Source of the DNA: a bacterium
GTDB lineage: Bacteria; Blakebacterota; Blakebacteria; Blakebacterales; Blakebacteraceae
Length of the DNA stretch: 20,464 nt
Direction of reading: 5' to 3'
Assembly: GCA_025774205.1 (NCBI GenBank)
Contig: JALGWK010000005.1
Coordinates: 1-20,464 of the forward strand
Both the position numbers and the translations under genes were made by a program. Shown here piece by piece: positions 1,342 to 19,041 of this stretch. Below the pieces are notes generated by a model. It saw only the letters and a program-made list of their open reading frames with translations. It was not told where the DNA came from and ran no database searches. Positions within the stretch are counted from its first letter, which is position 1. Each line of letters begins with the position of its first letter.

Positions 1342-2040
1342 ATGATCCGTGCAGGGAAAGGACGCCGGAGCGTGAGTGGACTGGGGACCGAAGCGTGGCT
1401 CAGGGCGATCAGAGAGAGGGTCGCTCCCCGTCCGAGCCTCTCCCTCGACCCGCACCGGGCGGCGCTGCTGGTGATTGACATGAACGTCCATTTCACCTCC
1501 TCCGATGGACGCTCATACCTGCCCATGGCGGAACTCATCATCCCGAACGTGAGAGAACTGGTTGACCGCTGGCGGACCATCGGAGCCGAGGTGATCTTCA
1601 CGCGGCACGGCCACCAGGGAGAGCACGATCTCGGTATGCTGGGGAAGTTCTTCTCCGACTACATCGCTACAGATGAGCCGGATGCCGAGATCATCCCCGA
1701 ACTCGCTCCGCTCGATAGCGAGAGGATCATCCGCAAGAACACGTATGACGCCTTCCTCGACACACCGCTCCAATCAATCCTTGAGGAGAAAGGGATCGAC
1801 CAGGTGCTCGTGACGGGTGTCCTGACCCACATGTGCTGTGAGACGACTGCCCGTTCGGCGTTCTGCCGGGGATATGAGGTGTATGTCGCCGTCGATGCCA
1901 TGGCCTCGAAAAGCGAAGACCATCATCTGGGCTCACTTCTTTCGATGGCGGATTCCGTGGCCGTGATGATGAGCACCCGGGAGATCCTCGAGGCCGCTCG
2001 AATGCGACGGTTGTCGCATGACAGGGCACAAGACCGGTGA
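1342..2040 (+). CDS. Isochorismatase-family cysteine hydrolase
   Basis: A 232-residue cytosolic alpha/beta hydrolase of the isochorismatase/nicotinamidase superfamily. The catalytic triad is visible: Asp46 in ALLVIDMNVHF, Lys132 in RIIRKNTYDAF, and the nucleophile Cys165 in GVLTHMCCETTAR, where a second Cys follows directly. The group typically hydrolyses amides or vinyl ethers such as nicotinamide, ureas, carbamates or isochorismate. Nothing here fixes the substrate, and no aryl-carrier domain is present. The start is uncertain: ATG 1342 has only a weak ribosome site, and the in-frame GTG at 1372 would remove ten basic residues that precede the fold. Its stop overlaps the GTG of the next gene by 4 nt (GTGA at 2037-2040), so it is translationally coupled to the flavoprotein and radical SAM genes. 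Confidence 0.88.
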   Translation: MIRAGKGRRSVSGLGTEAWLRAIRERVAPRPSLSLDPHRAALLVIDMNVHFTSSDGRSYLPMAELIIPNVRELVDRWRTIGAEVIFTRHGHQGEHDLGMLGKFFSDYIATDEPDAEIIPELAPLDSERIIRKNTYDAFLDTPLQSILEEKGIDQVLVTGVLTHMCCETTARSAFCRGYEVYVAVDAMASKSEDHHLGSLLSMADSVAVMMSTREILEAARMRRLSHDRAQDR

Positions 2041-2942
2041 GGTCGACCTCGATCATCATCGTCGGCGCGGGACCCGCGGGCTGCGCCGCCGCCGTTCAGT
2101 GCGCGCGCATGGGGGTGATGCCGGTCCTCCTCGACCGCACCGGACGCCCGGGAGGACTGATAGGCAACGCCTGGTCGGTCGAGAACTACCCCGGGCTGGA
2201 ACCGATGGACGGCCGGGAGATCTCGAACCGGTTGAGGGAGTTCCTCGATCGGTTCCGGGTTGAGATAGTACCGGCTGTGGTTTCCGGCATCAGGCGCGAC
2301 AGCGGGCATCTCGTGGTGGACTCGTCCGAAGGTGTCATAGGCGCCGGAGCGGTGGTCGTCGCGACCGGCACCCGGCCGGTCCTGCTCGAAGCACCGGGGA
2401 GTGAAGAGCTGCGAGGTCGGGGTTTCTGCTACGAAGTCCGGGAACTGCTCGAGGCCGACCCGGTCCCGGAGAGGGTGGCAGTCATCGGAGGGGGCGAGGC
2501 GGCGCTCGATTACTCCCTTTCGCTGGCCGGGGCAGGCGCCGGTGTCACCCTGCTGGTCAGGGGGGCAACCCTCCAGGCCGGAAAGAGATTGATCGATCTG
2601 GTGGCGGCAGATGAGAACATTTCGATCCGCTACGGGATCGGGATCGGGAGTCTGAGGAGATCGGGGGAGGGGATGACGGTGACCTTCTCGTCGGAAGAGG
2701 TGGAGGACTCGCTCCACTGCGACGGAGTCGTCGCGGCCATAGGCAGGGAAACCGCGACAGATCACCTGCCGGAGGAGCTGAGGGGCGGTGACACGGCTAC
2801 GGTTGGTACCGGCTGGGAGGGATTGTATATCGTGGGGGACGCAAGACTCGGCGCGCTCGGACAGGTGGGGATCGCGGTCGGGGATGGTCTGGAGGCGGCC
2901 ATGGCCGCTGTATCACTGGTGAAGGGAAGGGATGAGTCGTGA
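2037..2942 (+). CDS. TrxR-like FAD/NAD(P)-dependent oxidoreductase lacking the CxxC pair
   Basis: A 301-residue flavoprotein with the thioredoxin-reductase fold. The FAD-binding GxGxxG is at residues 9-14 (IIVGAGPAGCAAA), the ATG-type motif is in VVVATGTRPV, the NAD(P)-binding GGGEAA follows in VAVIGGGEAALDYS, and the C-terminal FAD motif is GDARLGALGQVGIAVGDG. Where thioredoxin reductases carry CATCDG after the GRG turn, this protein reads GRGFCYEVRELL. It has one cysteine only, so it cannot form the redox disulfide that reduces thioredoxin. This resembles ferredoxin-NADP-reductase-type relatives of TrxR. The GTG start at 2037 overlaps the upstream stop by 4 nt, and its own stop overlaps the downstream GTG by 4 nt. 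Inference: it passes NAD(P)H electrons to a partner, possibly the adjacent radical SAM protein. Confidence 0.85.
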   Translation: MRSTSIIIVGAGPAGCAAAVQCARMGVMPVLLDRTGRPGGLIGNAWSVENYPGLEPMDGREISNRLREFLDRFRVEIVPAVVSGIRRDSGHLVVDSSEGVIGAGAVVVATGTRPVLLEAPGSEELRGRGFCYEVRELLEADPVPERVAVIGGGEAALDYSLSLAGAGAGVTLLVRGATLQAGKRLIDLVAADENISIRYGIGIGSLRRSGEGMTVTFSSEEVEDSLHCDGVVAAIGRETATDHLPEELRGGDTATVGTGWEGLYIVGDARLGALGQVGIAVGDGLEAAMAAVSLVKGRDES

Positions 2943-3874
2943 ACCTGGAGATCGTACGAACCACCGGAGAAGATGAGCTGGCCCAAGTGTTCGTGGCCCG
3001 GCTCGAGGACGGCTACGCGATCGAATTCGTGGAATCGGTCCAGCCGCCCTTCTCGCGCGAAGAGAAATGGGTGCTGATCGTGTCGACCCTCAGGGGTTGT
3101 CCGGTCGGCTGTCCGATCTGCGACGCAGGGGGAGATTACGCCGGGAAACTCTCGCGGGATGAGATCATGGCCCAGATCGACTTCCTGATCCGGAGGCGGT
3201 ATCCGGACGGCCGGGTGCCGGTGCCGAAACTGAAGCTGCAGTTCGCCCGGATGGGAGATCCCGCCCTGAACGAGGCCGTGCTGGAGGTGCTCGAAACTCT
3301 GCCCGACAGGTACGAACTACCGGGACTGCTGCCCAGCGTTTCGACGGTGGCTCCGTCGGGCTGTGATGACTTCTTCGAGCGGCTCATCACGATCAAAGAC
3401 ACGCACTACTCCGGTGGCCGGTTCCAGATGCAGTTCTCACTGCACACCACCGACGAAGAGAGTCGACGTCGGCTCATTCCCTGCCGGACCTGGTCGCTGG
3501 AACAGATTGCCGCGTACGGTGACCGGTTCTTCCGGGCCGGGGATCGGCGGATTACCCTGAACTTCGCCCCGGCGGTCGGTCTGCCTCTTGAACCGGCCGC
3601 GCTTCTGCCCCTCTTCTCTCCCGATCGGTTCTTCATCAAACTGACGCCGATCAATCCCACCCACGCGTCGGTCGATTCACGGCTGGTCGGGCTGATCGAT
3701 CCGGATGATGAGGCTTCCAACCGCGCGAGAGTCGAATCATTCGAGGCGTGCGGTTACGATACCCTGCTGAGTATCGGTGAGGTGCGGGAGAACGCGATCG
3801 GATCGAACTGCGGGATGTATGTGACGCAGATGGAGAAGATGGCCGGTCAGGTCCACACCGGTCCCGGGCAATGA
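2939..3874 (+). CDS. RlmN/Cfr-like radical SAM protein, non-canonical
   Basis: A 311-residue radical SAM protein with the CxxxCxxC cluster at Cys54, Cys58 and Cys61 (RGCPVGCPIC). Homology to the RlmN/Cfr rRNA methyltransferases is visible throughout: an entry strand ARLEDGYAIEFVES, MGDPALN at 105-111 in place of MGEPLLN, SVSTVAPSG, QFSLHTTDEESRRRLIP, a KLTPINPTHAS strand, and the terminal Cys291 in IGSNCGMY, which aligns with the methyl-carrying Cys355 of E. coli RlmN. Two things differ. The N-terminal RNA-binding helical domain of RlmN is missing or reduced, and Ile47 occupies the place of the second catalytic cysteine (Cys118 of RlmN, seven residues before the first cluster Cys). GTG 2939 overlaps the previous stop by 4 nt. 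It is probably not a housekeeping RlmN; the substrate may be RNA or a small molecule. Confidence 0.8.
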   Translation: MNLEIVRTTGEDELAQVFVARLEDGYAIEFVESVQPPFSREEKWVLIVSTLRGCPVGCPICDAGGDYAGKLSRDEIMAQIDFLIRRRYPDGRVPVPKLKLQFARMGDPALNEAVLEVLETLPDRYELPGLLPSVSTVAPSGCDDFFERLITIKDTHYSGGRFQMQFSLHTTDEESRRRLIPCRTWSLEQIAAYGDRFFRAGDRRITLNFAPAVGLPLEPAALLPLFSPDRFFIKLTPINPTHASVDSRLVGLIDPDDEASNRARVESFEACGYDTLLSIGEVRENAIGSNCGMYVTQMEKMAGQVHTGPGQ

Positions 3875-3895: not shown

Positions 3896-5263
3896 TCAGC
3901 TGACCGTTTCCGAATCTCTCTCCGGTTCGAGCCGGTCCAGATATGTCCGGACCGAACTGATCGCGACACCGGAGAGCACTGCCACCCCGATGAGATTCGT
4001 CAGCGCCATCATCCCGTTGAATATGTCGCCGATCGACCAGCTGGTCTCGACCCCCATCGAAGCGCCCAGGAAGATGAGGATACAGAACAGCCATCTGAAG
4101 GGGAGACGGATCTTCGGCCCGAAGAGGTAACTGTATGAGATCTCGCCGTAATACGGGTTGGCGATGAGACTCGAGAAACCGAAGAGAAGTGAGGAAGCCG
4201 CCACGATCAGACCACCGATGCCGGGGATTGCGGTGTTGAAGGCGTTGACGGTCATCTCGGTGCTGATCCCTTCTGTCCATGCCCCTGTCACCAGCACTGC
4301 CAGGGCGGTGAGGGTGCAGACCACCAGCGTGTCGATGAACACATCAAGCGCCGCGATCATCCCCTGCCGGGCAGGTTCACTGGTCCGGGCGGCGGCGTGG
4401 AAGACGGCCGCCGTTCCCGTCCCGGCCTCGTTCGAGTAGGCTCCCTTCGCGAAACCCTGGCGTATCGCGTGCGCGATGGTGGCGCCCGCGATTCCTCCGC
4501 CGACAGCCTGGGGGTTGAACGCGCCCCTGAATATCAGTCCCAGCGCCTCCGGGATCCGGTTCGCGAAAAGAGCGACCGTGACGAGAGCTCCGCCGAGGTA
4601 GAGCACGACCATGAAGGGACTCAGCACCACCGTGACGCGGGCGATCCACTTGATACCGCCGATGATGACCAGCCAGACCGCCAGCGCCAGCCCGAGTCCG
4701 GAGATCCAGGGTGCGATACCCACCTGGGTTTTCAGGGCCAGGGCGATCGAATTCGACTGCACAATCGTGGTCGCGAAGAGCGCCTTCCCCCCCATGAAGA
4801 ACGCGAAGATAGCCGCCAGCCAGCCGAGTCCGAGACCGCGGCTGATGTAGTACATCGGTCCGCCCGCCACACTGCCGTCGGGAGTGATGATCCGGAAGCG
4901 CTGCCCGAGCACGGCCTCGACGATCTTGGTGGCCATTCCGAAGAAGGCGGCGAGCCACATCCAGAACACGGTGCCCGGGCCGCCAAGGGCTATCGCCGTA
5001 CAGACCCCGGCGATATTCCCGTTGCCGATCGTGGCTGCCAGCGAGGTGGTCAGGGCCTGCAGGGGGGAAATGTCACCGGTGAGGTCCTCGTCATCCTTGC
5101 CGCGGAGCAGGAGGCGGATTGAGAGACCGAGCCTGCGGATCTGAATGAAGCGGAGTCGAACGGTGAGGAATATCCCTACTCCGATCAGGAGCAGGAGCGT
5201 ATGGGGCCCCCAGACGATGGCGCCCAGGAGGTTGACAATCCGTTCGAACAGCCCTGTCTCCAC
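3896..5263 (-). CDS. Sodium:alanine (AGCS-family) symporter
   Basis: A 455-residue inner-membrane carrier of the alanine/glycine:cation symporter family, which imports small neutral amino acids with Na+ or H+. The family signature region is intact (residues about 65-115): DISPLQALTTSLAATIGNGN, then IAGVCTAIALGGPG and FWMWLAAFFGM. Family-typical segments follow: GQRFRI, GGPMYYISRGLG, the later GFAKGAYSNEAGTGTAA helix, and a terminal hydrophobic block ending near LIGVAVLSG. About ten to eleven hydrophobic segments are apparent and the length is normal. The start is a GTG at 5261-5263, with a purine-rich stretch (AGGGG) upstream on the minus strand. A sigma70-like promoter lies 50-80 nt upstream. 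Its 3' end faces the radical SAM gene with a 21-nt gap and no obvious terminator hairpin. Substrate identity within the family cannot be read from sequence. Confidence 0.93.
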   Translation of the reverse strand: METGLFERIVNLLGAIVWGPHTLLLLIGVGIFLTVRLRFIQIRRLGLSIRLLLRGKDDEDLTGDISPLQALTTSLAATIGNGNIAGVCTAIALGGPGTVFWMWLAAFFGMATKIVEAVLGQRFRIITPDGSVAGGPMYYISRGLGLGWLAAIFAFFMGGKALFATTIVQSNSIALALKTQVGIAPWISGLGLALAVWLVIIGGIKWIARVTVVLSPFMVVLYLGGALVTVALFANRIPEALGLIFRGAFNPQAVGGGIAGATIAHAIRQGFAKGAYSNEAGTGTAAVFHAAARTSEPARQGMIAALDVFIDTLVVCTLTALAVLVTGAWTEGISTEMTVNAFNTAIPGIGGLIVAASSLLFGFSSLIANPYYGEISYSYLFGPKIRLPFRWLFCILIFLGASMGVETSWSIGDIFNGMMALTNLIGVAVLSGVAISSVRTYLDRLEPERDSETVS

Positions 5264-7202: not shown

Positions 7203-7364
7203 ATGCATAAGTGGATCTGCATGGCGTGTGACTACATCTACGACCCGGAAGCCGGCGATCCTGACAGCGGCATCCCCCCCGGAACACCCTTTGAAGATAT
7301 CCCCGCTGACTGGATCTGTCCCAACTGCGGGGTCGGCAAGGACCTCTTCGAACCGTATGGTTGA
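7203..7364 (+). CDS. Rubredoxin
   Basis: A 53-residue one-iron electron carrier, the normal length for the family. The four Fe-ligating cysteines form two CxxC knuckles: [12 protein letters not shown] near residues 5-8 and [11 protein letters not shown] near 38-41. The spacer contains the family-typical sequence [19 protein letters not shown]. Cytosolic; it shuttles single electrons, normally from an NAD(P)H:rubredoxin oxidoreductase to an acceptor protein. Its stop (7362-7364) is followed by only two bases before the ATG of the flavodiiron protein, so the pair is translated together, and the flavodiiron protein is the evident electron acceptor. An inverted repeat and candidate promoter lie upstream. 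No dedicated rubredoxin reductase gene is in the window. Confidence 0.96.
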
Positions 7365-7366
7365 TC

Positions 7367-8551
7367 ATGAATCCACGCAGAATCCGTGACAACATCTGGG
7401 CGGTCGGGACGATCGACTGGGATCGGCGGCTCTTCGACGATCTCATTCCCCTTCCGGAAGGCACGAGTTACAACTCCTACCTGTTGAAGGGGAGTGAGAA
7501 GACCGCGCTGATCGACGGCGTCGATCCGGCGGTCGAGCAGGTTCTGCTCGACAACCTCCGTTCGCTGGGCGTCGAGAAACTCGACTACATCATCTCGAAC
7601 CACGCTGAGCAGGATCACTCCGGCGCGATCCCGGCGGTTCTCGAGGCCTGGCCGGAATCGATGGTGGTGACCAATCCCCGGTGCGCGGGGATGCTGACCG
7701 ATCACCTGCACCTCCCGGAGGAACGGTTCATCCTGAAGGATGACGGAGAGACCCTCTCTCTCGGCGACTGGACCCTCCAGTTCTTCCTGGCCCCATTCGT
7801 ACACTGGCCCGAAACCCAGTTCACCTGGCTCACCGAGGAGAAGATCCTCTTCACGGGTGATTTCCTCGGCTCCCATCAGGCCACCAGCGATCTCTTCGTG
7901 AGGGATGAAGCCGGCACGCTCTTCGGCGCCAAGCGGTACTACGCCGAGATCATGATGCCCTACCGGAAGAAGTTCCCGAAATACCTCGACCGTATCGACG
8001 GACTGGCGCCCGAGATCATCGCCACCACGCACGGTCCGATCTACGACCGGCCCGCCTCCATTCTCGAGGCCTACCGGGAGTGGTCTTCCGACGAAGTGAA
8101 GAACGAAGCGGTGGTGGCCTACGTCTCGATGCACGACACCACCGCGAAGATGGCCGGCCACCTCATCAACGCGCTCATCGACCGGGGTGTGCGCGTGAAG
8201 GTCCACAACCTGACCGGGGTCGACGTGGGGGAACTGGCCATAGACCTGGTCGACGCCGCCACGGTCGTCTGGGCCTCACCGATCGTCGGCGTCGGGCCGC
8301 ACCCCAACGCCGCCTATGCCGCCTTCCTGGCGAATGTCCTGAAACCGAAGGTGAAGTACACTGCTGTCATCGGCTCCTACGGCTGGGGCGGGAAGATGGT
8401 GGAGCAGCTGCTCGGCCTGCTCAAGAACCTCAAGGTCGAAGTACTCGATCCGGTGATGGTCAAGGGCTTCCCCCGGGAGGAGGATTTCGCCTCGCTCGAC
8501 GGTCTGGCCGATACGATCGCCGGGAAACACCGGGCAGAGGGACTGCTCTGA
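7367..8551 (+). CDS. fprA: Flavodiiron protein (class A, FprA-type O2/NO reductase)
   Basis: A 394-residue protein made of an N-terminal metallo-beta-lactamase domain with a diiron site and a C-terminal flavodoxin domain. Diiron ligands are visible: His79, Glu81, Asp83 and His84 in SNHAEQDHSG, His146 in FVHWPETQF, Asp165 in FTGDFLGSH, and His222 in TTHGPIYDRP. The flavodoxin part starts near residue 248 with the FMN phosphate loop SMHDTTAKMA (254-263) and continues through ASPIVGVGPHP and IGSYGWGG. It has no C-terminal rubredoxin or flavin-reductase extension, so it is class A and takes electrons from the rubredoxin encoded immediately upstream. It reduces O2 to water and/or NO to N2O in the cytosol. 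ATG 7367 is preferred over the TTG at 7361, which overlaps the rubredoxin stop. Confidence 0.95.
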   Translation: MNPRRIRDNIWAVGTIDWDRRLFDDLIPLPEGTSYNSYLLKGSEKTALIDGVDPAVEQVLLDNLRSLGVEKLDYIISNHAEQDHSGAIPAVLEAWPESMVVTNPRCAGMLTDHLHLPEERFILKDDGETLSLGDWTLQFFLAPFVHWPETQFTWLTEEKILFTGDFLGSHQATSDLFVRDEAGTLFGAKRYYAEIMMPYRKKFPKYLDRIDGLAPEIIATTHGPIYDRPASILEAYREWSSDEVKNEAVVAYVSMHDTTAKMAGHLINALIDRGVRVKVHNLTGVDVGELAIDLVDAATVVWASPIVGVGPHPNAAYAAFLANVLKPKVKYTAVIGSYGWGGKMVEQLLGLLKNLKVEVLDPVMVKGFPREEDFASLDGLADTIAGKHRAEGLL

Positions 8552-8637: not shown

Positions 8638-9396
8638 TTAATAGGGGAGTCCGCTGCCGGTACCCAGCAGGAACTGGTTGTCCGGGTTCCTCGTTTCGCC
8701 CCCGCTGACCACTCGGATCGCCGCCGGATCGTTCACCGGGCACCGTTCCTCACAGATGCCGCAGCCGATGCACAGTTCGGCGTCCACGTACGGCTGCTGC
8801 AGCACCTTCTCGACTCCATTGTGGTCGATCACCGTCACTTCGCGGAACCAGATCGCCTTCCTGGGTGTCGGACAGTGTTCCTCGCAGACGATACACTCGA
8901 CGTCGTAGACCCACGGGAGGCAGCGGTTCCGGTCGACCCAGGCAGTGCCGATGTGAGTTTCCTTCTTCTCCTCCAGCGTGATTTCCTTGATCGCTCCGGT
9001 GGGACAGACCTGACCGCAGAGGGAACAGTTGTATTCGCAGTAGGCGGTCGCGAAGAAGAGGAAGGGGGTCCAGAGACCGGCCAGCCCGGCCTCCGAGGTG
9101 GTCGGATGGATGGCGTTGGTGGGGCAGACCTTCATGCACTCGCCGCAGCGGATGCACTTCCGGAGGAAATCATCCTCCCCCAGCGAGCCGGGGGGGCGGA
9201 TCAACCAGGGATTCCAGGTATGACCCTGCACGAAGGGTGAGACCTCGAGCAGCATGGTGGCCGCCACGCCCGAGCCGGCCGCGGTGAGGAAGGATCGCCT
9301 GCTGACCGCGGTCTTCGGCAGTCTCTTCCTCTTCCGGCGTCGGAACCGGCTGCGGAACCAACCCTCTTTCCGGTCTCCTCCCTTATTCCGCAACAT
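8638..9396 (-). CDS. NapG/MauM-like Tat-exported polyferredoxin
   Basis: A 252-residue iron-sulfur protein. A twin-arginine signal is visible at residues 32-37 (SRRSFL) with a following hydrophobic stretch TAAGSGVAATMLL, behind an unusually long and basic 30-residue lead. Four cysteine clusters follow: Cys81/84/87/91 (CIRCGECMKVCP), Cys124/127/131 with nearby Cys120 (CSLCGQVCP), Cys168/171/175 with nearby Cys159 (CIVCEEHCP) and Cys209/212/215/219 (CIGCGICEERCP). These can hold up to four [4Fe-4S] centres and resemble NapG/MauM. It would act on the outer face of the inner membrane, receiving electrons from or passing them to the NapH-like membrane protein. Its ATG overlaps the upstream gene by 14 nt, showing tight coupling. 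No nap or mau structural gene is nearby. Confidence 0.88.
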   Translation of the reverse strand: MLRNKGGDRKEGWFRSRFRRRKRKRLPKTAVSRRSFLTAAGSGVAATMLLEVSPFVQGHTWNPWLIRPPGSLGEDDFLRKCIRCGECMKVCPTNAIHPTTSEAGLAGLWTPFLFFATAYCEYNCSLCGQVCPTGAIKEITLEEKKETHIGTAWVDRNRCLPWVYDVECIVCEEHCPTPRKAIWFREVTVIDHNGVEKVLQQPYVDAELCIGCGICEERCPVNDPAAIRVVSGGETRNPDNQFLLGTGSGLPY

Positions 9397-10375
9397 CGGC
9401 CGTCACCTTCTTCCTGAACTTTGCCTTCGGGGGCAGAGGCGGCACGATAACCGTCCTCTTCCCGAACCACTTCCATCGGAACGAGATCGCGCCTGCCGGA
9501 CACTGCTCCCGGCAGTTGAAACAGGCGAAACACTCCTGCTGTTTCCACTCCCCGCTCAGATGGGGATCACAGGACCCGTGGCAGTAAGGGACGCACAGAT
9601 TGCAGTCGATGCAGGCCTCGGGATCGTTGTACACCTCCAGCCGGGAGACCTTCGAGCAGTAGCCGAGAAGCGCGCCGAGGGGACAGATGAACTTGCACCA
9701 GAAGCGGAACCTCACCAGGGCGAAAACCGCCAGGGTGGTGAAGAAGAGCCCGACCAGGACCCCGCCCCGGAACGAGATCGGCTCATAGGGAAGAGCGTTG
9801 TTGAGCAGGAAGGAGTAGATCGGCTCCGAGATCAGGGTGATCCTGACCGGCCCGATACCGGGGTTCCAGTTGTAAAGCCAGGTGAAGAGCTGCTCGGCGC
9901 CCCACGCGAACGCCGGATAGATGGTCGTGGCCATGGTGCGATAGAAGAGGGGGATGGGGTCGAAGAGCCCCACCAGATTGAGGCCGCTCGCCGCCGCTGT
10001 GAGCAGCCCGATGAGCAGGAGGTACTTGCTCTTCTGCCACTTCGACCACTGGCCGGTACGGATCTGCTCCTTCAGGGAGTCGCCGCGGAAGGAACTGATC
10101 AGGTTGAAGGTCGTCCCCAGCGGACAGACCCAGCCGCAGAAGACCCGGCCGAGAAGCAGGGTAAGCGCCACGGTAATGAGTGCCAGCAGCATGCCCGGGA
10201 GGATGGTGCCGGAGGAGATGAAGGTGGAGAGCAGGACGAGAGGGTCTATCTGGAGGAAGAACCTGGCCAGCGGTCCGTGATCGTTCTCCCCCACCAGGGT
10301 CGTGCCGAGGAAGAGCACGATGAAGAGCCCGAGGAAGAAGATCTGCGATGCGCGGCGCCAGTTGACGATGCTCAT
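9383..10375 (-). CDS. NapH-like membrane 4Fe-4S protein
   Basis: A 330-residue integral membrane iron-sulfur protein. Hydrophobic segments occur at about residues 10-27, 45-80, 118-140 and 205-225. The membrane-loop cysteine motifs typical of the NapH/CcoG/RdxA superfamily are present (FCGWVCPLGT and the related WCKFICPLGALLG), followed by two ferredoxin clusters, CIDCNLCVPYCHGSCDP and CFACFNCREQCP. By family knowledge such proteins pass electrons between quinol and extracytoplasmic Fe-S partners. It lies between the DUF362 gene (60-nt gap upstream) and the NapG-like gene (14-nt overlap downstream), so it is probably the membrane anchor of a three-protein module. The ATG at 10375 has only a weak AGGGA ribosome site. 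No heme-binding pattern was noticed. Confidence 0.88.
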   Translation of the reverse strand: MSIVNWRRASQIFFLGLFIVLFLGTTLVGENDHGPLARFFLQIDPLVLLSTFISSGTILPGMLLALITVALTLLLGRVFCGWVCPLGTTFNLISSFRGDSLKEQIRTGQWSKWQKSKYLLLIGLLTAAASGLNLVGLFDPIPLFYRTMATTIYPAFAWGAEQLFTWLYNWNPGIGPVRITLISEPIYSFLLNNALPYEPISFRGGVLVGLFFTTLAVFALVRFRFWCKFICPLGALLGYCSKVSRLEVYNDPEACIDCNLCVPYCHGSCDPHLSGEWKQQECFACFNCREQCPAGAISFRWKWFGKRTVIVPPLPPKAKFRKKVTADVAE

Positions 10376-10435
10376 AGTCCCTGGTGTCCCTTCACATGAC
10401 GGACGTCGGCACGGAGAGTGCCGCCGGACCCGACA

Positions 10436-11362
10436 CTACACCTCGGTCCGGACCGGGTCGAGACTTTCGTAATCGACCGTGCCCAGTCCAAGGGCCGCCC
10501 CGGCTATGGTGGTGTCGATCCGGCTGGCGTCCAGGCCAAAGAGAGTGGCCCCGAAGGCCTCGATGGCGACGGTATCGGTCCCGGCCACAACGGTATCGCG
10601 GCGTTCCACATCATCGATGCTGCCGCCGGTCGGGCCGTTGGCGATCAGCACCCGGACCGCGTCGAGGACGACCAGGTCGGAGGGCACGAACTTCGCCACG
10701 TCGGCCATCGCCGGTCCGAGGTTCTGGTGGATCCGGTTCCGTTCCCCGCCGATCACACCCATCAGGTTCTTGATAGTGAGGGTGAGACCGGTGAGGTTGT
10801 GGTGCTTGGCAATGGGGACGTTGATCCGCTTGTCGCATTCCACGTAATCGACGTACATCGGCCAGCGTCTGAGGTTCTCACCGCCGATATCCATCTCCCG
10901 GAACTTGCGGCGATCCATGAAGAATACGTCGGCTCCCTCTGCTTCCGCGGCGGCCTGGATCCCGCTACGGAGGAAGGTACGCCGCTGGTCGTTGCAGGGA
11001 TAATCGGAGACCTTCACCTTGCCGGCGCCCGCGTCGAAACAGAGACGAACCAGGGTGGCTACCACATCGGGATTGGTGCAGGCCGCCTGCGCGGGCATCT
11101 TGTCCCAGCCGATATTCGGTTTGACGAAGACTGTATCACCCCGGTCGACGAACCGCCCCATTCCGCCCAGGTCCCTGATCGAGGCCTCCGTGAGGCGGAT
11201 CGCTTCTTCCCTGATCGCCTCCTCACCCTCTTCCGGATTCCGGTAGGTCGCGATCGACATGGCTGGTGAGCCCTGCAGCCCGGGAAAGGGCATGATACTG
11301 TACGCGGCCGTTCCCAGAGCGGCTCTCTCGATGAACGATCTTCGTGTGCAACGCGGCACCAT
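10436..11362 (-). CDS. DUF362 family protein with Tat signal
   Basis: A 308-residue DUF362-family protein of unknown biochemical role. The N-terminus has a twin-arginine motif (CTRRSFIERAALGTAAYSI, residues 5-23), indicating folded export. Family-typical stretches include DTVFVKPNIGWD, a PDVVATLVRLCFDAGAGKVKVSDYP region, the central INVPIAKHHNLTGLTLTIKN with NLMGVIGG, and a C-terminal VVAGTDTVAIEAFGATLFG. It has no ferredoxin domain of its own; the Fe-S clusters are supplied by the two neighbours downstream. The start at 11362 is chosen because GGGGAGG (plus-strand 11368-11374) lies 5 nt ahead of it. The longer frame to 11446 would bury the Tat motif about 30 residues in. It is the first gene of a probable operon running to 8638. 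Confidence 0.85.
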   Translation of the reverse strand: MVPRCTRRSFIERAALGTAAYSIMPFPGLQGSPAMSIATYRNPEEGEEAIREEAIRLTEASIRDLGGMGRFVDRGDTVFVKPNIGWDKMPAQAACTNPDVVATLVRLCFDAGAGKVKVSDYPCNDQRRTFLRSGIQAAAEAEGADVFFMDRRKFREMDIGGENLRRWPMYVDYVECDKRINVPIAKHHNLTGLTLTIKNLMGVIGGERNRIHQNLGPAMADVAKFVPSDLVVLDAVRVLIANGPTGGSIDDVERRDTVVAGTDTVAIEAFGATLFGLDASRIDTTIAGAALGLGTVDYESLDPVRTEV

Positions 11363-11367
11363 CTCAT

Positions 11368-11374
11368 CCTCCCC
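11368..11374 (-). promoter_or_regulatory. Ribosome binding site deciding the DUF362 start
   Basis: GGGGAGG on the minus strand lies 5 nt before the ATG at 11362. It supports this start, which places the twin-arginine motif at the extreme N-terminus, over an upstream in-frame start at 11446. Confidence 0.7.
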
Positions 11375-11530
11375 GTTCTCTGGAGATCTCCCCCAACGAT
11401 TCCACTGGCACTCCTTACTATAGTGAAAACTGCCCCGCCGTGACATTCAAAGGGGGACCGATTGATCCCCGGCGGTGGCTCGCGGTTCAAAGGTGCTGAA
11501 ACGACAGCCTCCAGGCTGTATCTTGAGACC

Positions 11531-14482: not shown

Positions 14483-16345
14483 ATGCTGGAGTTCTCTTCA
14501 TTGGAAGTCTGGATCTTCGTCTTCCTGCTCATCGCCGCCGTGGCCGGGTTCCTGCTGGTCGCCGGCCGGCAGTTGCGGGTTGTAAGGGAGGGACAACCCG
14601 ATCCGGGACGCCTCGATGAGATCGGGAAACGGCTCGGCCGGGTGATCAGGGAGGTCCTCTTCCAGACCCGGGTGGTGGGCGGTCGCCCGATAGCCGGTAC
14701 GCTCCATGCTCTGGTCTTTCTCGCCTTCCTTCTCTTCATTCTCGAGACGACCAGCATGTTCCTCGAGCCGTTCGGCCTGGAATACCTGCACGCCCTCATG
14801 GGAGACGCGCTGCCACTCTTCCGGACGATCGTGATGATCGCGGCTGCTGCCTGCGCGATCTCGATGCTGGGATTGGCATTCCGCCGGTTCGTGCTGGTCA
14901 GCCATTCCCCCGATCCGAAGGCATATGAATCCGGTTTCGTGGCCCTGCTGATCGTGCTCCTGATGCTCACCTACATCGACCTGAACGGCACCGCGCTTAT
15001 CGCTGCCAGGGTGGACTGGTGGCTCCATGTAGTAATCATCCTCGGATTCCCCGTCCTCATCCTCACCTCCAAGCACCGGCACATCCTCCTGGCGCCCGTC
15101 AATGTCTTCCTCCGCTCGCCGCGTCTCTGGGACGTGCCGAAGATGAACCTCGACTTCGAATCAATGGAGGATGATGAGGAGATCACCCTGGGGCTCGAGA
15201 CGGTCGCGGCGATCCCCTGGAAGCTGCGACTCGATTTCCTCGCCTGCGTGGAGTGCAAGCGCTGCACCGACCACTGCCCGGCAGCCGGCGCCGGACAGGA
15301 ACTGCGGCCGGCTGATTTCATCAAGGCCGGTCAGAAGGCGATCCTGTCGGGGAATGGCGATGACGCGGTGATCGGAACCGTGATCAGTGAGAAGGCGCTC
15401 GGGCAGTGCACCACCTGCATGGCCTGCGAGAACATCTGTCCGGTCGGGATCGAACATTCGAAGGTCCTGGCCGGGGCCAAGTACGCGCAGACCCTGGCGC
15501 TCGGTACCGGCGGGGTGGCGACCGAGTTCCTCAAAGCCATGAACAACACCGGCAACCCGTTCTCCTCGGAAGCGGATGTGCGCTCTGAACTGATCTCGGC
15601 GCTGGAAATGCCGATCTATGAGAAGGGGGAGACCGAATACCTCCTCTGGCTCGGATGTATCTGGTCGTACAATCCCGACTTCAGGAAGGTGGTCGAAGCC
15701 ACCTGCACCCTGCTGCGCCGGGCAGGGGTCTCCTGGGGTGTCCTTGAAGAGGAGAGCTGCAGCGGTCACCACTCCCGGCGCCAGGGGGAGGAGATGCAGT
15801 TCCAGATGCTGGCCGAGGAGAACTGCACGAGGTTCGCCGAGCAGGGAGTGCGCCGGATCGTCACCGGTTGTCCGCACTGTTTGAACACCTTCCGACACGA
15901 GTACCGTGACTTCCCGGGCGGAGAGGATCTTGAAGTGGTCCACCACTCGGAACTCTTCGCCGATCTCATCGGATCGGGTGCGCTCGCACTCGGCAAGGGG
16001 GCCCTTGCCGGCCGGCAGGTCACCTATCACGATCCGTGTTATCTCGGACGGTACGAAGGGGTATTCGGTGAGCCGCGCGACCTGATCGGAGCCGTCGGCG
16101 GTTCCCTCGTGGAGACCGTTCCCAACCGTTCCCGCTCCTACTGCTGCGGCGGGGGAGCCGCGGGATTCGTGATCGAGGCCGAGGAGGAGAACCGGGTCGA
16201 CCAGGAACGGAAACGCCATATCGAGGAGAGTGAAGTGGATCTGCTGGTCACCTCCTGTCCCGAATGCCGGATGATGCTCGCCGGCACCCTCGAAGAGACG
16301 AAGGATGTCGCCGAACTGCTCGTGGAATCGCTGGTGGGACCATGA
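14483..16345 (+). CDS. Membrane HdrD/FadF-type (Fe-S)-binding oxidoreductase
   Basis: A 620-residue membrane-bound iron-sulfur oxidoreductase. Residues 1-215 carry about six hydrophobic segments of the cytochrome b / NarI-HdrE-like type. Next is a dicluster ferredoxin domain with Cys255/258/261/265 (CVECKRCTDHCP) and Cys309/312/315/319 (CTTCMACENICP). The C-terminus carries two cysteine-rich (CCG) domains: WLGCIWSYNPDF with ESCSGHHSRR and TGCPHCLNTF, then DPCYLGRYEG, Cys554-Cys555 in YCCGGGAAG and SCPECRMM. This architecture matches proteins proposed as electron-transfer-flavoprotein:(mena)quinone oxidoreductases (FadF/EMO type) in fatty-acid oxidation; an HdrDE-like role is the alternative. 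No etfAB genes are in the window, though fabG is divergent next door. ATG 14483 is supported by GGAGG at 6 nt. The stop overlaps the alr ATG (ATGA). Confidence 0.88.
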   Translation: MLEFSSLEVWIFVFLLIAAVAGFLLVAGRQLRVVREGQPDPGRLDEIGKRLGRVIREVLFQTRVVGGRPIAGTLHALVFLAFLLFILETTSMFLEPFGLEYLHALMGDALPLFRTIVMIAAAACAISMLGLAFRRFVLVSHSPDPKAYESGFVALLIVLLMLTYIDLNGTALIAARVDWWLHVVIILGFPVLILTSKHRHILLAPVNVFLRSPRLWDVPKMNLDFESMEDDEEITLGLETVAAIPWKLRLDFLACVECKRCTDHCPAAGAGQELRPADFIKAGQKAILSGNGDDAVIGTVISEKALGQCTTCMACENICPVGIEHSKVLAGAKYAQTLALGTGGVATEFLKAMNNTGNPFSSEADVRSELISALEMPIYEKGETEYLLWLGCIWSYNPDFRKVVEATCTLLRRAGVSWGVLEEESCSGHHSRRQGEEMQFQMLAEENCTRFAEQGVRRIVTGCPHCLNTFRHEYRDFPGGEDLEVVHHSELFADLIGSGALALGKGALAGRQVTYHDPCYLGRYEGVFGEPRDLIGAVGGSLVETVPNRSRSYCCGGGAAGFVIEAEEENRVDQERKRHIEESEVDLLVTSCPECRMMLAGTLEETKDVAELLVESLVGP

Positions 16346-17595
16346 CCCGGTTCGACCGTCGATCGTTCCTCACCACCGTGGGGTTCGGAGCGGCGGCGAC
16401 TTTCGGCGATCAGAAGGCGCTTCAACCGGCTCTCTCTCCCGGCCATGACTCCCCTGCCTCCTCCGATCGGGCATCACCGTCACCACCTCGACCGGGTGGG
16501 CCCGATCCGTGGATCGAACTCGACCGGGAGGCGCTGAACCACAACCTGGCCGTGACCGGGCGACAGGCCGGGGGACGTCCGATCATGGCGGTGATCAAGG
16601 GGAACGGTTACGGTCACGGCCTGGTCGAGATGGGGACCCTCCTCCAGGAGGCGGGGAATCGCCAGGTCGCGGTGGCAAAGGTCGGGGCCGCCCTCGATCT
16701 GCGCGCCAACGGATACGACTGGCTCATCCTCAACTTCGGCCCCTATTCGTACACCGACCTCCCGGAACTGGTCCACGCCCGGATCTCGCAGACCGTCTTC
16801 ACCTCCCGCGTCAGGGACCTCGCGGCGGAAGCAGTACGACAGAGTCTCGTGGCCCCGGTCCAGGTAAACATCGATACCGGACTGGGAAGGGTAGGAGTCC
16901 CCTGGCGACAGGCTCCCGACTATCTCAGGGAGGTCGCCGGCCTGGAGGGTGTCCGCCTCGAAGGGGTATTCACCGCCCTGACCGAGGATCCGGAATTCGA
17001 CCGGGTTCAGGTCGAGCGGTTCGAATCTGTCTGTCTCGCGGCTCGTGAATCGGGGATCGATACCGGTTACCGCCACGCGGCCAGCAGTGCTGCCCTGATG
17101 GATAGCGGAGGCCCGTTCCTCGACATGGTGCGTCCGGGGATCGCCCTCTACGGGCACTATCCCAACGCCGGGAGCCGGCAGAGCCGCCCGATCGAACTGC
17201 GCCCCGTACTCTCACTGAAGACCAGGGTGGTATTCGTCAAGGAACTCGCGGCCGGAGATTCACTCTCCTATCATCGGGCGTGGACGACTGATCGACCGAC
17301 GCGGATCGCGACCCTCCCGATCGGGTATTCAGACGGCTATCCGGCCACTGCGGCCGGAGAGACCGGGGTGCTCATCCGCGGCCGGAAGTTCCCGGTGGTG
17401 GCGAGCATCACGGCGAACCACACGCTACTCGATCTGGGTGACGATGACACGATCGAGATCGGGGATGCGGCTGTCCTCATCGGGCGGCAGGGGGAGCAGC
17501 TGATCGACGCCGCTGACGTCGCCGACGCGGCGGGCGTCTCGGTCTATAAGCTTCTGATCGGCATGAACGCGGCGCTGCCCCGTCTCATCAGATGA
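16342..17595 (+). CDS. alr: Alanine racemase with twin-arginine signal
   Basis: A 417-residue PLP-dependent fold-type III racemase, interconverting L- and D-alanine or other small amino acids. The N-terminus is a Tat signal (RFDRRSFLTTVGFGAAATFG) followed by a Ser/Pro-rich linker to about residue 52, so the enzyme is predicted to be exported, unlike cytosolic Alr. The PLP lysine is Lys86 in MAVIKGNGYGHG and the catalytic tyrosine Tyr310 in SLSYHRAW; LYGHYPN and IGYSDGYP are family motifs. Asn176 in VNIDTGLGRVG takes the place of the often-carbamylated lysine, and ITANHTLLDL (Ala358-Asn359) replaces the usual Met-Asp pair. The ATG overlaps the upstream stop by 4 nt and its stop overlaps the ggt remnant's ATG by 4 nt. 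Substrate range may be broader than alanine. Confidence 0.87.
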   Translation: MTRFDRRSFLTTVGFGAAATFGDQKALQPALSPGHDSPASSDRASPSPPRPGGPDPWIELDREALNHNLAVTGRQAGGRPIMAVIKGNGYGHGLVEMGTLLQEAGNRQVAVAKVGAALDLRANGYDWLILNFGPYSYTDLPELVHARISQTVFTSRVRDLAAEAVRQSLVAPVQVNIDTGLGRVGVPWRQAPDYLREVAGLEGVRLEGVFTALTEDPEFDRVQVERFESVCLAARESGIDTGYRHAASSAALMDSGGPFLDMVRPGIALYGHYPNAGSRQSRPIELRPVLSLKTRVVFVKELAAGDSLSYHRAWTTDRPTRIATLPIGYSDGYPATAAGETGVLIRGRKFPVVASITANHTLLDLGDDDTIEIGDAAVLIGRQGEQLIDAADVADAAGVSVYKLLIGMNAALPRLIR

Positions 17596-19041
17596 AAAGG
17601 AACAGCATGAAGAGAACCAGACCAATCCTGTTGCTGTCCGCGGCAGCATTGCCCGTGGTCTTCGCGACATCACTGCTGCTCGATCGTCCGCGACCGCCGC
17701 GGGCCTCGAGGTACTGCAGAACGGGGGTAACGCCGTCGACGCCGCGGTGACCGCGGCCGCGGTACTCTGCCTGGTTGAACCCCACATGACCGGAATCGGT
17801 GGAGACGTGTTCGCGATCTACTGGTCGGCCGCGGAAGAGCGACTGACGGGACTGAACGCGAGTGGTCGATCCGGGGCACTGATGACGAGAGGCGCTCCAG
17901 CCGGTGATCAGGCTCGCCGAGGAGGGCTATCCCGTCTCCCCCATCATCGCCCGGCAGTGGGCGAACCAGACCCGGAAGCTCCTGCGTGATGAGGGCTCCA
18001 GGAACACCTGGCTGATCGATGGTGAACGGGCGCCGGAGGAGGGTGAGATATTCCGCAATCCCGATCTGGCCGCCACCTTCAGACTGCTGGCCACAGAAGG
18101 GCCGGAGGTCATGTACGGCGGGGAACTGGGAGCACGGCTTGTCGAATTCATGGAGGCGAACGGGGGCTTTATCACCCTGCAGGATCTGCGAGACCATTCG
18201 GTGGAGTGGGTGGATCCGATCGGGGCCCGGTTCGGCGACCGCACACTCTGGGAACTCCCTCCGAACGGTCAGGGAGTGGCCGCCCTGGAGATGCTGCGCA
18301 TCCTCGAACCGTACGATCTGAAGGGAATGGGGCACAACAGCGCGGCGTATCTCCATCATCTCGTCGAAGCGAAGAAACTTGCCTTTGCCGACCTGGCCCG
18401 CTATGTCGGCGATCCCGATCACCTCGACGTTCCACCGGAGCATCTCATCTCCGATGAGTTCATCGAGGCCAGGCGCGCACGACTCGATCCCGAACAGGCA
18501 GCGCGACGGCAGGACCCCGGTCCGGAGGTCACGGCCACCGAGACGGTCTATCTCTGCGTGGCGGACGCCGAGGGGAACATGATCTCCTTCATCCCAGAAC
18601 CGCGGTCAGGGCTTCACCATGGAAGAGGGGCTGCCGAACACGGTGGCGCCGCGCAAACGTCCTTTCCATACCCTGATACCCGCCTTTGTCACCCGGTCAG
18701 ATGCAGCGGGAGGCACCCGGGAGCCGTGGCTCGCCTTTGGTGTCATGGGCGGCTCGATGCAGCCGCAGGGCCATATCCAGGTCCTGTTCAACCTGCTCCT
18801 CTTCGACATGGATCCTCAGGAGGCCATCGACGCGCCCCGGTTCCGGCATCTGAGCGGATTGCGGATCGTCCTGGAGTCCCCGATCGGGGATGAAGTAAGA
18901 AGGCAACTCGAGGCCATGGGACATGTGATCGGTTCGGAGGCCTCGGTGGCATTCGGAGGAGCCCAGGCGATCATGAACATTGCCGGGGGCTGGAGTGCCG
19001 GGTCGGATCCGCGGAAGGACGGCATGGCCGCGGGGTATTGA
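17592..19041 (+). pseudogene. ggt: Gamma-glutamyltransferase remnant with three frame-changing deletions
   Basis: Protein similarity to periplasmic gamma-glutamyltransferases runs across the interval but in four successive pieces. Piece 1 (17592-about 17680) is a signal peptide MKRNSMKRTRPILLLSAAAL. Piece 2 (about 17687-17895, another frame) has GLEVLQNGGNAVDAAV and EPHMTGIGGDVFAIYW. Piece 3 (about 17896-18594) has PVIRLAEEGYPVSP through the catalytic-Thr region ETVYLCVADAEGNMISFI. Piece 4 (18595-19041) has QNRGQGFTMEEGLP to AGSDPRKDGMAAGY. Compared with the family, about 60 residues are missing between pieces 2 and 3 and about 25 between pieces 3 and 4. A smaller stretch may be missing at the first junction. 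Residues flanking the gaps are well conserved, so the gene died recently or the assembly lost sequence. Its ATG overlaps the alr stop (ATGA). Confidence 0.82.

Follow-up and report, generated by a model that had tools for sequence, protein, structure and literature searches.

Do three genes joined end to start in a bacterial genome encode a single system, and what might such a system do? The locus lies in a 20,464-nucleotide stretch of a Blakebacteraceae genome (assembly GCA_025774205.1, contig JALGWK010000005.1, positions 1 to 20,464; hereafter the window). All three genes are on the forward strand: gene 1 (1342..2040, 232 aa; start either ATG at 1342 or GTG at 1372) encodes an isochorismatase-superfamily cysteine hydrolase, gene 2 (2037..2942, 301 aa) a FAD/NAD(P)H flavoprotein of the TrxR fold, and gene 3 (2939..3874, 311 aa) a radical SAM protein of the RlmN/Cfr fold which its AlphaFold2 model and tree place in a separate family. 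Both junctions are GTGA start/stop overlaps, at 2037..2040 (start GTG at 2037, stop TGA ending at 2040) and at 2939..2942 (start GTG at 2939, stop TGA ending at 2942), as an earlier note on this DNA had described. The neighbouring genes on either side, at 123-1259 and 3896-5263, are on the opposite strand, so that the trio forms an isolated unit. Four-base overlaps, GTGA included, are commonplace in bacteria; the observation exceeds chance because one gene order (hydrolase, flavoprotein, radical SAM protein) recurs in distant lineages.

Other features of the window were recorded in passing. NapG-/NapH-like ferredoxin genes adjoin a DUF362 gene at 8638-11446 on the reverse strand, beside a gene for a flavodiiron-type protein at 7361-8551. 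An alanine racemase encoded at 16264-17595 (+) has a twin-arginine-like N-terminus (DRRSFLTTVGFGAAATF), which is unusual for an enzyme that is normally cytoplasmic. A gamma-glutamyltranspeptidase at 17747-19041 (+) is split over several frames, two pieces of which match PF01019 at 110-345 and 386-512, reflecting either assembly frameshifts or a broken gene.

Across homologous loci, the flavoprotein gene immediately preceded the radical SAM gene in 96 of the 97 with enough sequence, and the hydrolase gene lay before the flavoprotein gene in 71 of 82. These counts are slightly inflated, as a handful of contigs were reached twice, by different routes, and entered as separate loci. The junction between flavoprotein and radical SAM genes was a 4-nt overlap in 46 of the 96 adjacent pairs. 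At two Thermotoga-like loci an ORF lies between these genes, transposase-like in one (L165, 6519-7763) and of the metallo-beta-lactamase fold in the other (L166, 8350-8922). All four genomes checked that lacked a neighbouring hydrolase gene (G006, G105, G135, G137) encoded a trio-type hydrolase elsewhere (211-239 bits), and 19 trio-negative genomes yielded no hydrolase match above 119 bits. The neighbours of the unlinked trio-type hydrolase genes indicated no common pathway; one adjoins an adenosylhomocysteinase gene. Distance matrices of the three proteins were correlated (Mantel r 0.79-0.86, in part through shared ancestry), with all three co-varying about equally. In a Thermoplasmatota MAG (L065), genes 2 and 3 are fused into a single ORF of 622 residues; the linker, of ~30 residues, is longer than a simple frameshift joining two overlapping genes would produce. 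The trio is thus a conserved three-gene functional unit, within which the flavoprotein and the radical SAM protein are strongly paired. The earlier note had proposed a single system and had named the scattering of the homologues in most genomes as the observation that would count against it; the adjacency counts, the unlinked hydrolases and the fusion all agree with its proposal. It had also known of no described pathway with this set, and among the papers we searched, on the gene set and on RlmN-like families, none was found that describes the trio.

A close homologue of gene 3 was present in six of 98 genomes of mixed origin (including that of the window), each time with a gene 2 homologue upstream. 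Screening of bacterial and archaeal genomes yielded at least 494 relatives, the best 80 of which came from bacteria including Eisenbacteria, Fermentibacteria, Myxococcota, Krumholzibacteriota, Chloroflexota, Bipolaricaulota/Acetothermia, Hydrothermae, Cloacimonadota, Zixibacteria, Latescibacteria, Planctomycetes and Desulfobacterota, and from archaea including Thermoplasmatota and methanogens such as Methanoculleus and Methanogenium. Overall, the trio was found in ~8% of a diverse bacterial sample, in 44 of 103 genomes belonging to a phylum presumed from gene content to be Thermotogota, and in some archaea. It is depleted in COX1-bearing genomes, COX1 being encoded by 2 of 31 trio genomes against 171 of 355 others (p = 2e-6, phylogeny ignored).

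The AlphaFold2 model of the gene 3 product (pLDDT 92.7) matched RlmN with Z 23-25 and Cfr with Z 18, the next fold reaching Z 14. At the sequence level the relationship is distant: matches to the RlmN/Cfr models were weak and far under their cut-offs, the window protein scoring 35 bits against a curated cut-off of 290 bits for RlmN (TIGR00048), and the match to the Pfam radical SAM model was also weak. In a tree with RlmN sequences, trio proteins formed one clade on a long branch apart from RlmN (support 0.85), and genome searches separated the two, with trio members at 266 bits or more (one fragment at a contig edge aside) and no RlmN-type protein above 86 bits. On sequence and modelled structure, we regard the gene 3 family as an RlmN/Cfr-fold sister family of its own. 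Another protein, a 302-residue RlmN-like sequence at L147 (8154-9062, genome G382), lacks the N-terminal domain, keeps equivalents of both C118 and C355, scores 209 bits against the RlmN cut-off of 290 and may represent another RlmN-like family.

Class A enzymes employ two conserved cysteines; in RlmN, E105 deprotonates C355, and C118 is indispensable (PMC9692996). The C118A variant gives no product, and NADPH with Fpr and FldA serves as a reductant in vitro (PMC5130265). RlmN without C118 is inactive and remains cross-linked to its RNA (PMC5130265, PMC9692996). In the trio proteins the CxxxCxxC [4Fe-4S] motif (C54/C58/C61, GCPVGCPICDAG, 3098..3121) is present in 111 of 111 sequences, as are C291 (3809..3811) in GSNCG, aligned to the methyl-carrier C355 of RlmN (ACGQL), and R104 (3248..3250) in ARMG(D/E)P, whose RlmN counterpart is GMGEP. 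The residue aligned to E105, the base for the methyl-carrier cysteine, is E29 (3023..3025), kept in 110 of 110. The position of the resolving cysteine C118 is taken by I47 (3077..3079) and holds I, L, M, V or S in all 111 sequences and Cys in none, leaving C54, C58, C61 and C291 as the only invariant cysteines; every genuine RlmN row in the alignment has Cys there. The N-terminal domain is also absent, structural alignment beginning at RlmN residue 78 and Cfr residue 64. The earlier note's RlmN/Cfr-like assignment stands as regards the fold; it had overlooked the missing resolving cysteine and N-terminal domain. The proteins are mostly acidic, with a median pI of 6.1 (4.9 in the window) against 7.6-10.0 in nine genuine RlmN proteins, but not universally so, a quarter of the family having a pI above 8.2.

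Since they lack C118 and the N-terminal domain and are usually acidic, these proteins fall outside the class A methylases as defined, and the sequences and models suggest that RNA is probably not the substrate. We accordingly do not count the enzyme among these methylases, but its mechanism may match theirs as far as the thiomethylene radical. A role as a replacement for RlmN was rejected, genuine RlmN coexisting with the trio in 27 of 32 trio genomes. In the genome of the window (G000, 86% complete) and its congener G001 no genuine RlmN was found, the trio protein being the sole match to the RlmN model in both.

The flavoprotein matched PF07992 (Pyr_redox_2) and the TrxR model TIGR01292 (E = 1e-39), and by both sequence and structure TrxR is its closest relative. 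Its AlphaFold2 model (pLDDT 95) has the FAD and NAD(P)H Rossmann domains in the TrxR arrangement and best matched the flavin-reducing form of TrxR (5mh4; Z 34.8, 294 residues, rmsd 2.6), with a worse fit to the flavin-oxidising form of the same enzyme (5mjk; Z 28.8, rmsd 7.2). As the earlier note had recognized, the CxxC pair is missing: 107 aligned homologue rows contained no conserved CxxC and no column with Cys in more than 38 of 107, which rules out a conventional disulfide reductase. R175 of the TrxR NADPH motif HRRxxxR is kept and the remainder is partial.

The assignment of gene 1 to the isochorismatase-fold cysteine hydrolases was borne out by a match to Pfam PF00857 (Isochorismatase, E = 5e-45) and by an intact triad, which is invariant wherever it could be aligned (D46 in 77 of 77, K132 in 85 of 85 and the nucleophile C165, in THMCCETTARSAF at 1834..1836, in 85 of 85). 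H89 and R171 are invariant or nearly so. With D46, K132 and C165 kept, the hydrolase should be an active amidase-type enzyme, to judge by its sequence; membership of the superfamily points to no particular substrate.

These observations lead us, tentatively, to favor a stand-alone module of anaerobes in which an RlmN-like enzyme with a probably non-RNA substrate works with a dedicated flavoprotein redox partner and a hydrolase. In such a module, SAM would methylate C291 with E29 acting as the base. The reduced [4Fe-4S] cluster would then cleave another SAM molecule, so converting the S-methyl group on C291 to a thiomethylene radical. This radical would attack an sp2 carbon of the substrate, for which a small N-heterocyclic metabolite or cofactor precursor is the likeliest candidate. 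The flavoprotein, as the dedicated partner of the radical SAM enzyme, would draw electrons from NAD(P)H and pass them either to the cluster or to the one-electron reduction that ends the turnover, which in RlmN involves C118. The cysteine hydrolase may cleave the precursor or the product at an amide or ureido bond, before or after the radical SAM step. Gene order and adjacency, the unlinked hydrolases, the Mantel correlations, the fusion, the invariant equivalents of C355 and E105, the missing N-terminal domain, the low pI, the coexistence with RlmN, the rarity of COX1 and the parallel of LipT all speak for this reading. The weakness of NAD(P)H as a donor (see below), the partly kept HRRxxxR motif, the pI values that are not uniformly acidic and gene neighbourhoods that indicate no consistent substrate speak against it. 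So does the inactivity of RlmN without C118 (PMC5130265, PMC9692996), in view of which the chemistry of the trio may differ from methylation altogether.

The earlier note's proposal that the flavoprotein is the reductant of the radical SAM enzyme is plausible. The flavoprotein could alternatively act on the substrate or product, or re-reduce the enzyme after turnover. As an electron source for a radical SAM cluster NAD(P)H is weak; it is thus not self-evident that the flavoprotein could reduce the cluster directly, and an intermediate carrier may be required. A possible, if somewhat doubtful, alternative is a three-step pathway in which one step, a reduction or oxidation of the substrate or product, is carried out by the flavoprotein itself, the radical SAM protein being served by the cell's ferredoxin. 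Low-potential ferredoxin is abundant in anaerobes, Fe-S and FMN carrier domains are absent from the flavoprotein, whose model adopts the flavin-reducing form, and the roughly equal co-variation of the three proteins is also consistent with a pathway. However, the flavoprotein gene is tied to the radical SAM gene more tightly than the hydrolase gene is, and the sole fusion seen joins the flavoprotein to the radical SAM protein.

A bolder proposal, which we consider rather unlikely, is that the radical SAM protein is a one-cysteine relative of the class A enzymes: it would form the Cys-S-CH2 radical and end the reaction without C118, leaving the terminal electron step to a dedicated NAD(P)H flavoprotein, within a cofactor or metabolite biosynthesis that is undescribed and common to anaerobic bacteria and archaea.

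Gene neighbourhoods bear on whether the trio is instead accessory to a known pathway, namely CODH/ACS maturation, LipS1/S2 lipoate assembly or an anaerobic purine/urate cluster. In two Anaerolineales loci (L075, L089) the trio is enclosed in a CODH/ACS-type operon, and genes for CooC-like ATPases lie beside it there and in L069. The trio hydrolase gene is overlapped by 4-8 nt by a LipS2-type radical SAM gene in L168 (8932-9831) and by a gene resembling this type in L175 (9271-10173), the model-based assignment to LipS2 covering L168 only. SsnA, YgeY, carbamoyltransferase and HyuA genes surround the trio in three Thermotogota-like genomes (L129, L171, L174), a purine/urate-type context confined to one family of that phylum, and folP is nearby in Dehalococcoidia and one other Chloroflexi MAG. 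These local contexts, which differ by lineage, hint at one-carbon, sulfur or purine metabolism. We nevertheless judge an accessory role improbable: each context is limited to one lineage and other neighbourhoods vary, and at the genome level neither CdhC (3 of 31 trio genomes against 40 of 355 others; Fisher p = 1) nor LipS2 (3 of 31 against 15 of 355) was associated with the trio. General partnership with CODH/ACS, suggested by the Anaerolineales operons, and a general link to LipS2 were both rejected on these counts, and at 12 other loci no flavoprotein gene was found near LipS2 genes. Anti-phage defence was also rejected, PADLOC returning no match except one weak hit.

Slightly less probable still is RNA modification, with gene 3 encoding an RlmN paralogue that methylates another rRNA or tRNA adenosine by an altered mechanism. 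The RlmN/Cfr fold and the retained equivalents of C355 and E105 are what would be expected of such an enzyme, but the N-terminal domain and C118 are missing, the proteins are mostly acidic, and a hydrolase and a flavoprotein would be unusual partners for RNA methylation. Chance neighbours that merely overlap, as bacterial genes frequently do, have a negligible probability, this explanation being already refuted by the identical order in distant bacteria and archaea, the fusion and the co-occurrence of even unlinked genes.

A fixed three-enzyme module of this kind points to an overlooked anaerobic metabolite or modification. The radical SAM enzyme of the trio is missing a residue regarded as essential to the chemistry of its fold, and a flavoprotein of its own accompanies it. 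Two questions thereby become accessible to experiment: how the thiomethylene adduct is resolved, and by what means a radical SAM enzyme is coupled to a single reductase. In RlmN, the source of the electron that closes the cycle is noted as unidentified (PMC9692996).

Among known systems, the flavoprotein shares with TrxR and its FNR2 and Bdr relatives the two-domain FAD/NAD(P)H fold and the GxGPAG and GxGxxA motifs; it differs from TrxR in having no CxxC, no conserved Cys and a partial NADPH motif, and in the flavin-reducing conformation of its model. The hydrolase shares its fold family and D-K-C triad with the biuret hydrolase BiuH, RutB and N-carbamoylsarcosine amidase, and resembles EntB by similarity, but scores far under the cut-off of every NCBIfam equivalog. 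For a flavoprotein tied to radical SAM enzymes, LipT offers a proposed parallel by analogy: in the portion of the source consulted, it is described as a FAD-dependent NAD(P)H oxidoreductase encoded with the radical SAM enzymes LipS1/S2, and its authors propose it as their electron source (PMC10332631). The likeness rests on that description and on the LipS2 gene adjoining the trio in L168. Unlike the trio enzyme, LipS1/S2 are BioB-like, insert sulfur and are accompanied by a lipoate ligase, with no hydrolase mentioned in that portion (PMC10332631), and the genome co-occurrence expected of LipT was not seen in the counts, which covered LipS2 (3 of 31 trio genomes). Class A RlmN and Cfr methylate A2503 of 23S rRNA or A37 of tRNA. 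With them the trio protein has in common the fold, the CxxxCxxC motif, a C-terminal xxCGQ-like loop with the methyl-carrier Cys (C355 in RlmN, C338 in Cfr) and the E105 equivalent; it differs in having neither the second Cys (C118 in RlmN, C105 in Cfr) nor the N-terminal domain, in being mostly acidic, and in forming a separate clade with its own CDAGG and ARMG(E/D)P motifs and an adjoining flavoprotein gene in 96 of 97 loci.
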